Source: Lepraria neglecta (Eukaryota; Ascomycota; Lecanoromycetes; Lecanorales; Stereocaulaceae). From it: a stretch of DNA of 64,000 bases. The notes beneath the pieces were generated by a model that did no database searches, was not told the origin of the DNA, and saw only the letters and a program-made list of their open reading frames with translations. Within the stretch, counting starts at the first letter, position 1, and each line of letters starts with the position of its first letter. The position numbers and the translations under genes are program-made. The DNA lies in assembly GCA_033220425.1 (NCBI GenBank), contig CM065652.1:4278001-4342000 (forward strand), written 5' to 3'. Shown here in pieces: positions 6,195 through 9,325 of the stretch.

Positions 6195-8276
6195 ATGTCT
6201 TCTCCACGGGTCCTCATCTACCTCTTGCGACGGGATCTGCGTCTTGCAGATAACCCTATCTTCAACGAGATAGCCAAGAATTTCCAGCAGTCTCACCATC
6301 CATACACGCACCTACTCCCAGTTTACCTCTTCGCAGCACAACAGATTGAGGTCTCTGGCTTCCTTACATCCGACTCGGACCGTTCGCCATTCCCAGAAGC
6401 TAGATCAAGCGCCGGCAGTTTCTGGCGATGTGGGCATCACAGGGCAAAGTTTCTGGCGGAAAGCGTATGGGATTTGAAGAAGTCGCTGGGCAACGTCGGG
6501 AGTGGCTTGGAGATCCGAGTCGGCCTGGCAGGCCAAGTCATCAAGGATTTACTCGAAGCTTTCAAGAAAGAGAGCACCGAAGTCGTGGGCATATGGATGA
6601 CGGACGAAGAAGGCGTTGAAGAGAAGAAGGAAGAACGAGATGTCAAGAAGGCTGCACAGGGTGCTGGCACCGAGTTCAAGCTCTGGACTGATGAGAAATA
6701 TTACATCGATGAGTAAGTACACACGCTGAAGGAGCGACTCCAGATCTAACAACCTGCAGCCGAGATGTCCCCTTCCAAAACCCTCGCGACCTCCCAGACG
6801 TCTTCACAACCTATCGCAAACAAGTCGAACCCCTCCGCGAAGCTCCTCGCCGCATCCTCTCCACCCCCTCAAAGCTCCCACCGCTACCACCCACAATACC
6901 ACCCCAACCAGCTCCCTTCAACATCCCCACCACCCTCGAAGCCATAATCACAGCTCTCCACAAACCCCTCTCCCCTTCCCTCGGCCTTGCCCACCCACCA
7001 ACCTATCCCAAAAACGCCAGCTCTGCGCACCCGTTCCACGGCGGCGAAGGCCCCGGCCACGACCGCATGCGCCATCTCATAACAAGCGGTAGCATAAGCA
7101 CCTACAAAGACACCCGTAACAGCATGCTCGGCCTAGATTTCAGCACCAAATTCTCCGCCTGGCTAGCCCTAGGCTGCATAACAGCACGGCAAATCCACTC
7201 GTACCTCCTCGCATTCGAAGACGGGACCAGCGACCTTGGAAAAGGTGTCCACGGCTACGGAAAGGGCGAGAACAAAGGCACAGAAGCCGTACGCTTCGAA
7301 CTACTCTGGCGGGACTACTTCCGCCTCACGACGCGAAAGTTTGGGCCCCGTCTATTCCATATTGAAGGATTCAAAGATGATACTTCCATATCGTGGAAAT
7401 ACCCTCAAAAGGACCCAGACACGCAAGCAAAAGTAATTCGTTTCCTCGAAGGTACGACAGGCACTGGCTTCATCGACGCAAGTATGCGCGAGCTGTTCCT
7501 CACAGGATACACGAGCAACAGGCTGCGGCAGAACGTGGCGAGTTTCCTCGCGAAGCATTTGGGTATAGACTGGAGGATCGGGGCGGAGTGGTATGAGAGT
7601 CTGCTGTGTGATTATGATTTGAGTAGTAATTGGGGTAATGTAAGGCACTTTCCTGCTTCATCCTTTCCCAGTCGGTCTCAATTTTGGAGCAATGAGAGAT
7701 GTCTCACAGCATTGTGTTTTGGTGAGGAGACGCTGACTCCGAAATGTTCTAGTGGCAATACACCGCTGGCGTCGGCAACGATCCTAGAGAGGCGAGAATA
7801 TTCAATCCTGTTAAGCAGGTAAGCATACCCGCCCTCATCCTGATAAATTCCTCATTGTATATATGAGAAAGGGCGACGCTGATGACATGCAGGCACACGA
7901 CTATGACCCACAAGGTGAATATGTCAAGAACTGGGTTGAGGAGCTTAGGCCACTCGATGATCCGCAGATTATATTCCAGCCGTGGAAGATGTTTGAGGAG
8001 AAGAAAAAGGAGCTCGGGCTTGTGGGGAATGAGATCGTTGAGCAGCCATTGAAGAGAATAGAGTTTTATGTTAGGAGGAATGCTGGGAGGGGAGGGGGGC
8101 GTGCGGGTAGGAAGGGCGGTGTAGCGGGCGGTGGTAGGCGAGGAGGAGTTGGTAGTGGTGGTGGGCGTGGAGGGTATAATGGGAGAGGGAGGGGCGAGAA
8201 ATCCAGAGGGCAGTGGAGGGAGGGAAAGATGGATCGCGCGAAGGCGATGACCAACGGTGAACAGCTAAATTTTTAG
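6195..8276 (+). CDS. cry: DASH-type cryptochrome with RGG/glycine-rich C-terminal tail
   Basis: Member of the photolyase/cryptochrome family, DASH branch: a flavoprotein known to bind FAD and a folate antenna, acting on single-stranded DNA or as a blue-light receptor. Exons are 6195-6712, 6760-7639, 7753-7818 and 7893-8276, 615 aa in all; each intron has GTRAG-type donors and a consensus acceptor. The N-terminal antenna domain starts LIYLLRRDLRLADNP. The FAD-binding domain carries GGEGPGHDRM, the STKFSAWLALGCITAR helix, LLWRDYFR and SNWGNWQYTAGVGNDPR, which is rebuilt across intron 3. The last 75 or so residues are an arginine- and glycine-rich tail (GRGGGRAGRKGG and similar) as known from fungal DASH proteins, fitting nucleic-acid binding. 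It ends tail-to-tail with egd1, 211 bp apart. Confidence 0.93.
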
Positions 8277-8487: not shown

Positions 8488-9325
8488 CTATTCGACTTTA
8501 CTCTCGAAATTCTCCCCCTCCACCAACTCCGGTATATCGTCATCGTCCTCCTCGTCCGCCTTTCCACCCTCTCCACCTTCCTTCTTCTGCATGCTCTGGT
8601 AGCTCTCTGCTAGCTTTCGGAGGCTAGCTAGGGAGTCTGGGCCGAGCTGGTTGAGGATGCCGGGTACGAGTTCGGTGAGTTCTTTGTCTTCGCCGTTGCC
8701 GTAGATGGCGAAGGTGTTGGAGGGGACGGAGGCGTGGACTGTGTGGATTTCATCAGCGATACTCCTATGATTAAGTCTAATGTGGTAAGGAAATGAGGGC
8801 GCGGGTTGGCTCATGTTGTGTGGGGGGTGCGCATACGCCTGAAAGAGCAACAAAAAATGCTAGTTCAGGGCGCTTGAAGACGTACCCTTGGGAGCTTTGA
8901 AGTGGATCACATTGCCGTCTTCCTTGAACATGTTGACCTCCTCAATTGCTTGAATAGGTTGTACATTGAGCTTCTTCAGCGAGGTTTGGAGCTTCTTGTC
9001 GTCTGTGCCGGACGTTTTGTGGACTTTCTTCACTTTTCTCCGGGGTGTGCCTTTGCCTCTGTAGAGGAGAAAGGCATCAGCGAAATGGTTTCGACAAAGA
9101 CCACAGTGATCTTATGAGCTAGAACGAGGGTTTTCCAGGGGGCTAGAGCGGTGAGGAAGTGGATGGAATTTGCATACCCTAAGGTTTAATTGTGTCAGCG
9201 AATGCTCGTTTCCGGGACATACACAAAGAAGCAGATATAGCCATTCAAATACAGAGATAATGCTGGTACAGTCACTCACCAATTCGCACCGACTGCTGCA
9301 TCTTTGCTAGCTTTGCTTGATCCAT
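8488..9325 (-). CDS. egd1: nascent polypeptide-associated complex subunit beta (Egd1/BTF3), with a 1-nt exon
   Basis: Beta subunit of NAC, the ribosome-bound chaperone that meets new chains at the exit tunnel. The model has four exons: 9280-9325, 9178 alone, 8886-9058 and 8488-8738 (156 aa). The protein starts [16 protein letters not shown], has the ribosome-binding basic block [13 protein letters not shown], then the NAC domain ([47 protein letters not shown]) and an acidic tail ending in [13 protein letters not shown]. The conserved [12 protein letters not shown] is obtained only if a single G at 9178, between a CCTTAG acceptor and a GTATGC donor, is used as an exon. Skipping it with the first acceptor shifts the frame; using an AG two bases further loses one glycine. 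Gene identity is certain; the one-base exon is inference. Confidence 0.95.
9178..9178 (-). other. egd1: putative one-nucleotide microexon of egd1
   Basis: Intron 1 (9179-9278, plus the donor base 9279) starts GTGAGT, has a GCTGAC branch site and ends CCTTAG. One base (G) follows, then intron 2 (9059-9177) starts GTATGC, has a GCTGATG branch-like site and ends CTCTACAG. The base supplies the middle position of the second glycine codon of RIGG. Confidence 0.7.

Follow-up and report, generated by a model that had tools for sequence, protein, structure and literature searches.

The gene egd1, which encodes NAC-beta (Egd1/BTF3) on the minus strand at 9325-8488 of the 64,000-nucleotide stretch analyzed here (the window) from Lepraria neglecta, a lichen fungus of the Stereocaulaceae (Lecanoromycetes, leotiomyceta), raises the question of how its transcript can specify the VRIGGKGT motif of the family when the exons that carry the two halves of this motif cannot be joined directly. 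Joining 9280 straight to 9058 loses the reading frame, as the first-pass annotation of this DNA, made from the letters alone, had stated, and leads to a stop after 24 residues; that annotation proposed instead that a single G, at 9178, forms an exon of its own. We conclude that egd1 very probably contains two ordinary introns that lie one base apart, and that the lone G between them is retained in the mRNA, inside a glycine codon of GGKGT. The use of this exon in L. neglecta is deduced from the DNA, from the uniqueness of the resulting model, and from protein comparison; at the DNA level, the lone G has been seen in the L. neglecta window only, and its counterparts in other species are deduced from proteins. 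Viral, bacterial, and archaeal contig collections contained no fungal relative of this DNA, as was to be expected. The gene comprises the following features:

9280-9325, minus strand: egd1 exon 1, with the ATG at 9325, 15 encoded residues plus a G, ending in phase 1 (from translation)
9179-9279, minus strand: intron 1, 101 nt, GTGAGT...CCTTAG (from sequence)
9194-9199, minus strand: branch-like site GCTGAC in intron 1 (from sequence)
9178, minus strand: putative one-nucleotide exon, G (from enumeration and comparative evidence)
9059-9177, minus strand: intron 2, 119 nt, GTATGC...CTCTACAG (from sequence)
9076-9081, minus strand: branch-like site GCTGAT in intron 2, with a pyrimidine-rich stretch after it (from sequence)
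8886-9058, minus strand: egd1 exon 3, A followed by GGC AAA..., starting in phase 2; the NAC domain begins here
8739-8885, minus strand: intron 3, 147 nt, ordinary, at the junction APK^VHA
8488-8738, minus strand: egd1 exon 4, to the stop codon (from translation of the enumerated model)

The identity of the gene is supported by a match of 59.1 bits to the NAC domain (PF01849) and by matches of the spliced protein, which has 156 residues, to BTF3-named chains of solved structures (best E value 5e-49), with VRIGGKGT present in all three BTF3-chain alignments shown. NAC-beta assists newly synthesized proteins at the ribosome. The egd1 translation also includes GTPRRKVKK, which carries an RRK-type motif that we take to be the ribosome-binding motif of NAC-beta. 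A second or intron-free copy of egd1 was not found in the L. neglecta genome, where, among the best candidates scored, only the locus at 9325-8488 matched; the genome therefore provides no internal control. Another NAC-domain match in this genome, on contig C4, is presumably NAC-alpha. On the plus strand, there are open frames at 6713-8276 that are photolyase/cryptochrome-like by eye; about 210 bases separate their end from the stop codon of egd1, and these frames and egd1 seem to be convergent.

The exon ends, donors, acceptors, single G, and branch-like sites quoted in the first-pass annotation were all found on the minus strand. At 9179-9177 the sequence reads CCTTAG|G|GTATGC; one base, preceded by AG and followed by GT, separates the two introns, and in GGKGT this G serves as the middle base of the codon for the first glycine. 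The acceptor of intron 2, CTCTACAG, ends at 9059, and exon 3 opens with AGGCAAAGG at 9058. The branch-site consensus is CTRAY. Throughout, statements on splice-site consensus are either general background or taken from PMC12940212.

We enumerated splice models by combining GT and GC donors (from approximately 9295 to 9220) with AG acceptors over the interval, at a minimum intron length of 40 nt; since the product was required to contain KGTPRR, models with an AG inside exon 3 (the type annotated as IGTPRR) were left out. Five single-intron models were in frame, with products that continue after MQQ as GKGT, SVGKGT, SVRIDHCGLC...RGKGT, SVRIGKGT, and SVRIGEGKGT, and none of the five gives VRIGGKGT. 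Among 952 two-intron combinations, 49 were in frame, and a single one, the model with the one-base exon, yields VRIGGKGT. The earlier claim that only the lone G restores both glycines thus holds across all single-intron models and two-intron combinations enumerated. Two of the in-frame single-intron models, with introns at 9275-9059 (VRIGEGKGT) and 9279-9111 (VRIDHCGLC...), had not been listed in the first-pass annotation; both match published annotations in L. neglecta or related lichens.

With regard to chance, the bare string AGGGT occurs 138 times in 128 kb (the 64-kb window on both strands), which corresponds to 0.24 expected per 221 bases; of 5000 dinucleotide shuffles, 3.5% had it in the central part of the interval. 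For the more specific YAG-G-GTRNG, there are 7 occurrences per 128 kb (0.012 per 221 bases), and 0.14% of 5000 shuffles had it. None of 5000 shuffles contained this pattern together with a CTRAY branch site 5-35 bases upstream; over the 128 kb of both strands, this composite is present once, namely at the egd1 site (9198-9173, minus strand). Intron 3 of egd1 contains, at 8844-8831 on the minus strand, TTTCAG-GC-GTATGC, which looks like a two-base exon for which the frame has no need and which represents a natural decoy for splice software. In view of this decoy, the presence of a motif is by itself weak evidence; motifs alone prove nothing, and the argument is carried by the conserved frame and the comparative data.

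For the comparative analysis, the L. neglecta egd1 protein was used as a query, and the best 120 of 4863 matches were retained; the closest relatives were lichen fungi (e.g., Lepraria finkii at 98% and Letharia columbiana at 96%). A second, Sordariomycete-like query contributed the best 120 of 4668 matches, 81 of them new, for a pooled set of 201 proteins that, where named, are Pezizomycotina by name; the placement of named relatives in Pezizomycotina, in classes, and in the groups of the control set below is our assumption. We classified 126 proteins (76 and 50 by query) as genome-annotated because ncbi, uniref, or nr was among their sources, and 75 as transcript-like, i.e., 74 that came from jgi, lgn, ena, or merc only (44 and 30 by query) and one uniref record filed under a firefly. 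Contigs for these 74 were 0.6-2.6 kb long, except for one of 3.4 kb and one of 5.2 kb, and three had no contig entry; an uninterrupted full-length frame from a multi-intron gene, if the contig is about 1 kb long, points to cDNA, and the label "transcript-like" is thus our own, derived from source and contig size rather than from a field in the record. The firefly-filed record, P0142, is a BTF3 entry under Photinus pyralis that is fungal and of the Sordariomycete-like type, perhaps a fungal contaminant in an insect transcriptome.

The junction was scored as intact when it read R/Q-x-G-G-K/R-G, with x being I, T, V, L, or A. By this measure, 29 of the 126 genome-annotated proteins (19/76 and 10/50) among the best-scoring Pezizomycotina relatives were intact and 97 were garbled, in many different ways, whereas the two glycines were present in all 75 transcript-like proteins among the matches listed. 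The 29 intact annotations may either include the one-base exon or represent genes with a simpler structure. As a control, a Basidiomycete-like query was used, and 105 new proteins among the best 120 of 5686 matches were scored; by name we take these to be mostly Basidiomycota, along with Mucoromycota, Taphrinomycotina (Protomyces, Saitoella), and one pezizomycete (Terfezia). Among the control matches listed, GG was present in 73/73 genome-annotated and 32/32 transcript-like proteins (105/105 in all); the BTF3 chains aligned, the transcript-like relatives, and these further proteins thus all have both glycines. Fisher tests gave P values of 1.8e-31 and 9.3e-31, which are descriptive only, as the proteins are related, and the lists compared represent best-scoring relatives rather than a random sample. 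GG was also invariant in an alignment of 25 proteins, which carries no weight on this point because GG-bearing proteins had been picked for it.

A second junction provided a control inside the proteins. There, the pattern HF..APK^VHA, an intron junction in the L. neglecta window and an assumed intron site elsewhere, was intact in 125 of the 126 genome-annotated Pezizomycotina proteins; it failed in 14 of the 105 control proteins, apparently due to real sequence differences (e.g., VHG or VQVHA). Matched records were drawn from the 30 closest pairs, a list along which identity falls to 94%. In Xylographa parallela, the genome-derived P0078 reads ...ANGVHASRGKGT while the transcript-like P0014 reads GGKGT, with 99.3% identity downstream of the junction; in Trichoderma evansii, the genome-derived P0192 (GRTGTGKGT) and the transcript-like P0168 (GRTGGKGT), the latter on the 5.2-kb contig, are 99.2% identical downstream of the junction. 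Alectoria P0004 equals Letharia P0002 once an inserted E is removed (GEG versus GG). Finally, the published L. neglecta NAC-beta, P0003, agrees at 173/173 residues with the translation of the window under a model with an intron at 9279-9111, and it carries 18 residues from the 3' end of intron 2 instead of the first glycine.

The garbled annotations themselves suggest how the junction was misread. The commonest class (33/97) has one extra residue, IGxGKGT, with x being T in 15, I in 6, D in 5, E in 2, H in 2, and K, N, and S in one each, as would result if software takes the next GT, four bases on, to mend the frame. Thirty of these 33 residues decode as consensus donors (GTACGT 15, GTGAGT 7, GTATGT 6, and GTAAGT 2), and the remaining three (H, H, and S) are off consensus (GTCAGT twice and one ambiguous); since some GTNNGT can encode any residue, the informative part is that the hexamers are consensus ones. 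The same four-base move in the L. neglecta window yields VRIGEGKGT, exactly the L. finkii annotation. A second class, which ends in xGGKGT (11/97), is expected if the annotation has a mini-exon that reads across YAG, takes in the same lone G, and stops at the same donor, in which case the codon for x should end in YA; x is S, P, L, I, T, or A, each with a codon ending in YA, in 10 of the 11, with P0194 (x = R) as the lone misfit. In 6 of these 11, LT occurs shortly upstream (SLTIFP, LLTVHP, QLTIYL, QLTLYI, QLTISP, and LLTSFS) and would represent an in-frame branch site, CTRAC, as translated. Retention of the end of intron 2, where AG, then A or a pyrimidine, then GGC would be read as AGA or AGY, is expected to produce R/S-GKGT; this ending was found in 21/97, and in 21/21 of these the preceding residue has a possible codon with C or T in last place, as needed for a YAG acceptor. 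The other annotations have one glycine (IGKGT, 4/97), have lost GK (IGTPRR, 6/97), or are of other, undecoded types (22/97).

Several readings do without the one-base exon. The competing model already named in the first-pass annotation does exist: a single 223-nt intron at 9279-9057 that uses the second AG of ACAGAG is in frame and gives VRIGKGT, and four of the 97 garbled annotations among the listed Pezizomycotina carry IGKGT. Splice acceptors disfavor G at -3, and this model needs such an acceptor two bases behind the better CTACAG; it also drops a glycine that is kept in 75/75 transcript-like relatives and 105/105 control proteins, and we consider it very unlikely. A single intron at 9275-9059, with the donor GTGACT four bases on, has a slighter chance still, even though it is in frame, gives VRIGEGKGT as annotated in L. 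finkii and Alectoria, and belongs to the commonest class of garbled annotations (33/97). Its extra residue varies among species in the manner of donor hexamers (T, I, D, E, K, or N in 30/33) and is present in 0/75 transcript-like proteins, including the 99.2% identical partner of one such annotation, and GTGACT is less consensus-like than GTGAGT. The published L. neglecta model, an intron at 9279-9111 with the acceptor CATAAG, translates to exactly P0003, yet it replaces the first glycine with 18 residues and so breaks the conserved motif; these residues come from translation of the 3' end of intron 2, including its branch-like site and pyrimidine-rich stretch, and annotations in close relatives have different inserts or none, which leaves this model with the smallest probability of all, close to nil.

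A different kind of alternative is one non-canonical TG-AG intron, with the donor shifted by one base (ATTGG|TGAGTG...ACAG) and no internal exon. It predicts the identical mRNA, so the transcript-like proteins cannot separate it from the one-base exon. To our knowledge, TG donors are essentially unknown among U2 introns, and their use is chemically very unlikely; in addition, the extra residue in 30 of the 33 annotations of the commonest garbled class decodes as a consensus GT donor retained at phase 1, and AG|G|GT with its two branch-like sites would be left unaccounted for. We regard this reading as highly improbable, on a par with the intron at 9275-9059.

The one-base exon between two canonical introns can be compared with a number of known systems. 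A one-nucleotide exon in CYP621A, a Fusarium P450 subfamily, was termed the first fungal case by its authors; these genes are said to be rarely expressed, RNA reads back the exon, and an origin through rescue of a lost base via a cryptic AG-G-GT was proposed (PMC12940212). Like CYP621A, egd1 is a fungal nuclear gene in which a lone AG-G-GT base lies in a glycine codon of a conserved motif, is needed for the frame, and is a place where automatic gene models err; unlike CYP621A, egd1 is a ribosome-associated housekeeping gene for which one copy was found and of which traces extend across several classes, and its exon is predicted from DNA and protein comparison whereas that of CYP621A is supported by RNA. 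The plant APC11 gene, which the first-pass annotation had rightly named as the best-known case, has a one-nucleotide exon in Arabidopsis and other land plants, with proof from minigene mutations in protoplasts (PMC4674806, PMC8831610); VPS55 in land plants, in which the base is present in some copies or isoforms and absent from others (PMC8831610), and Fusarium CYP621A are further cases. As is proposed for egd1, APC11 has an old, constitutive lone-base exon between canonical introns in a conserved housekeeping gene, and this exon is missed in annotations; APC11 differs in being a plant gene with A as the base in Arabidopsis, as opposed to G in a fungus. VPS55 is likewise deeply conserved and absent from reference annotations; it has forms with and without the base, unlike egd1, for which a single copy was found. 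Mitochondrial one-nucleotide exons in Trichoplax cox1 (PMC5436844) and in fungal rnl with group II introns (PMC12308204) also place a single base between two introns; unlike egd1, neither is nuclear and spliceosomal.

Stwintrons, the nested introns of Ascomycota (PMC12403724, PMC5639578, PMC6616335), resemble the egd1 arrangement in that two packed U2 introns require consecutive splicing. In a [D1,2] stwintron, the internal intron splits the donor after its first base, leaving zero exonic bases between the introns; in egd1, what comes after the first acceptor is G and then an entire GTATGC rather than TATGC, so the donor is not split, and a [D1,2] stwintron was rejected on sequence. A term search of the three stwintron papers for one-base exons, and of two of them for NAC, gave nothing relevant (one small exon occurs in another context) (PMC12403724, PMC5639578, PMC6616335). 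No report of a one-base exon in NAC-beta was found in our searches of the open-licence literature. One-base exons are already established through APC11, VPS55, and CYP621A; the probable one in NAC-beta appears to be new, and it is notable for the gene, its age, and its spread.

As to mechanism, two U2-type introns with canonical GT-AG ends and a branch-like site each would be cut from the egd1 pre-mRNA, and the lone G would be joined to both of its neighbors, giving G-G-A, a glycine codon, and restoring the frame. Since the acceptor of intron 1 overlaps the donor of intron 2 (AG|G|GT), one spliceosome could hardly sit on both at once, and introns 1 and 2 are thus probably removed consecutively, each by intron definition.

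The exon was initially described as an oddity of a single gene. The one-base exon itself is supported; the notion of an isolated case is too narrow, as the database entries point to a recurrence of this structure in several fungal classes, which, by our assignment of these database proteins, presumably are Lecanoromycetes, Eurotiomycetes, Dothideomycetes, Leotiomycetes, and Sordariomycetes. Garbled annotations in Pezizomycotina, set against intact transcript-like proteins and an intact outside group, suggest that the one-base exon is probably ancient and common to the leotiomyceta. Genome annotations in Pezizomycetes (Wilcoxina, Pyronema, Choiromyces, and Terfezia) have GG in 4/4, and those in Orbilia in 0/2, a pattern that suggests an origin near the base of the leotiomyceta, possibly also including Orbiliomycetes. 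We consider it likely, as one joint reading, that the exon arose once, in the leotiomyceta ancestor after the split from Pezizomycetes, that it has been kept since through lichens, aspergilli, dothideomycetes, leotiomycetes, and sordariomycetes, and that about three quarters of the sampled annotations (97/126) are wrong because of it. It may have originated through a cryptic AG-G-GT that rescued a lost base, as proposed for CYP621A, or a second intron may have been gained next to one that was already there.

The comparison of annotated and transcript-like proteins suggests that the egd1 one-base exon is usually missed in genome annotation; if the reading proposed here is true, a conserved protein would be corrected in many public proteomes, and the gene would provide a test case for annotation software. 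Furthermore, the overlapping AG|G|GT sites of egd1 would offer a natural series for the study of their ordered use and of why such an arrangement persists. The one-base exon would then no longer be an oddity of a single P450 in a single genus, and the smallest possible exon would be a long-lived and constitutive element of a housekeeping gene across a very large group of fungi.
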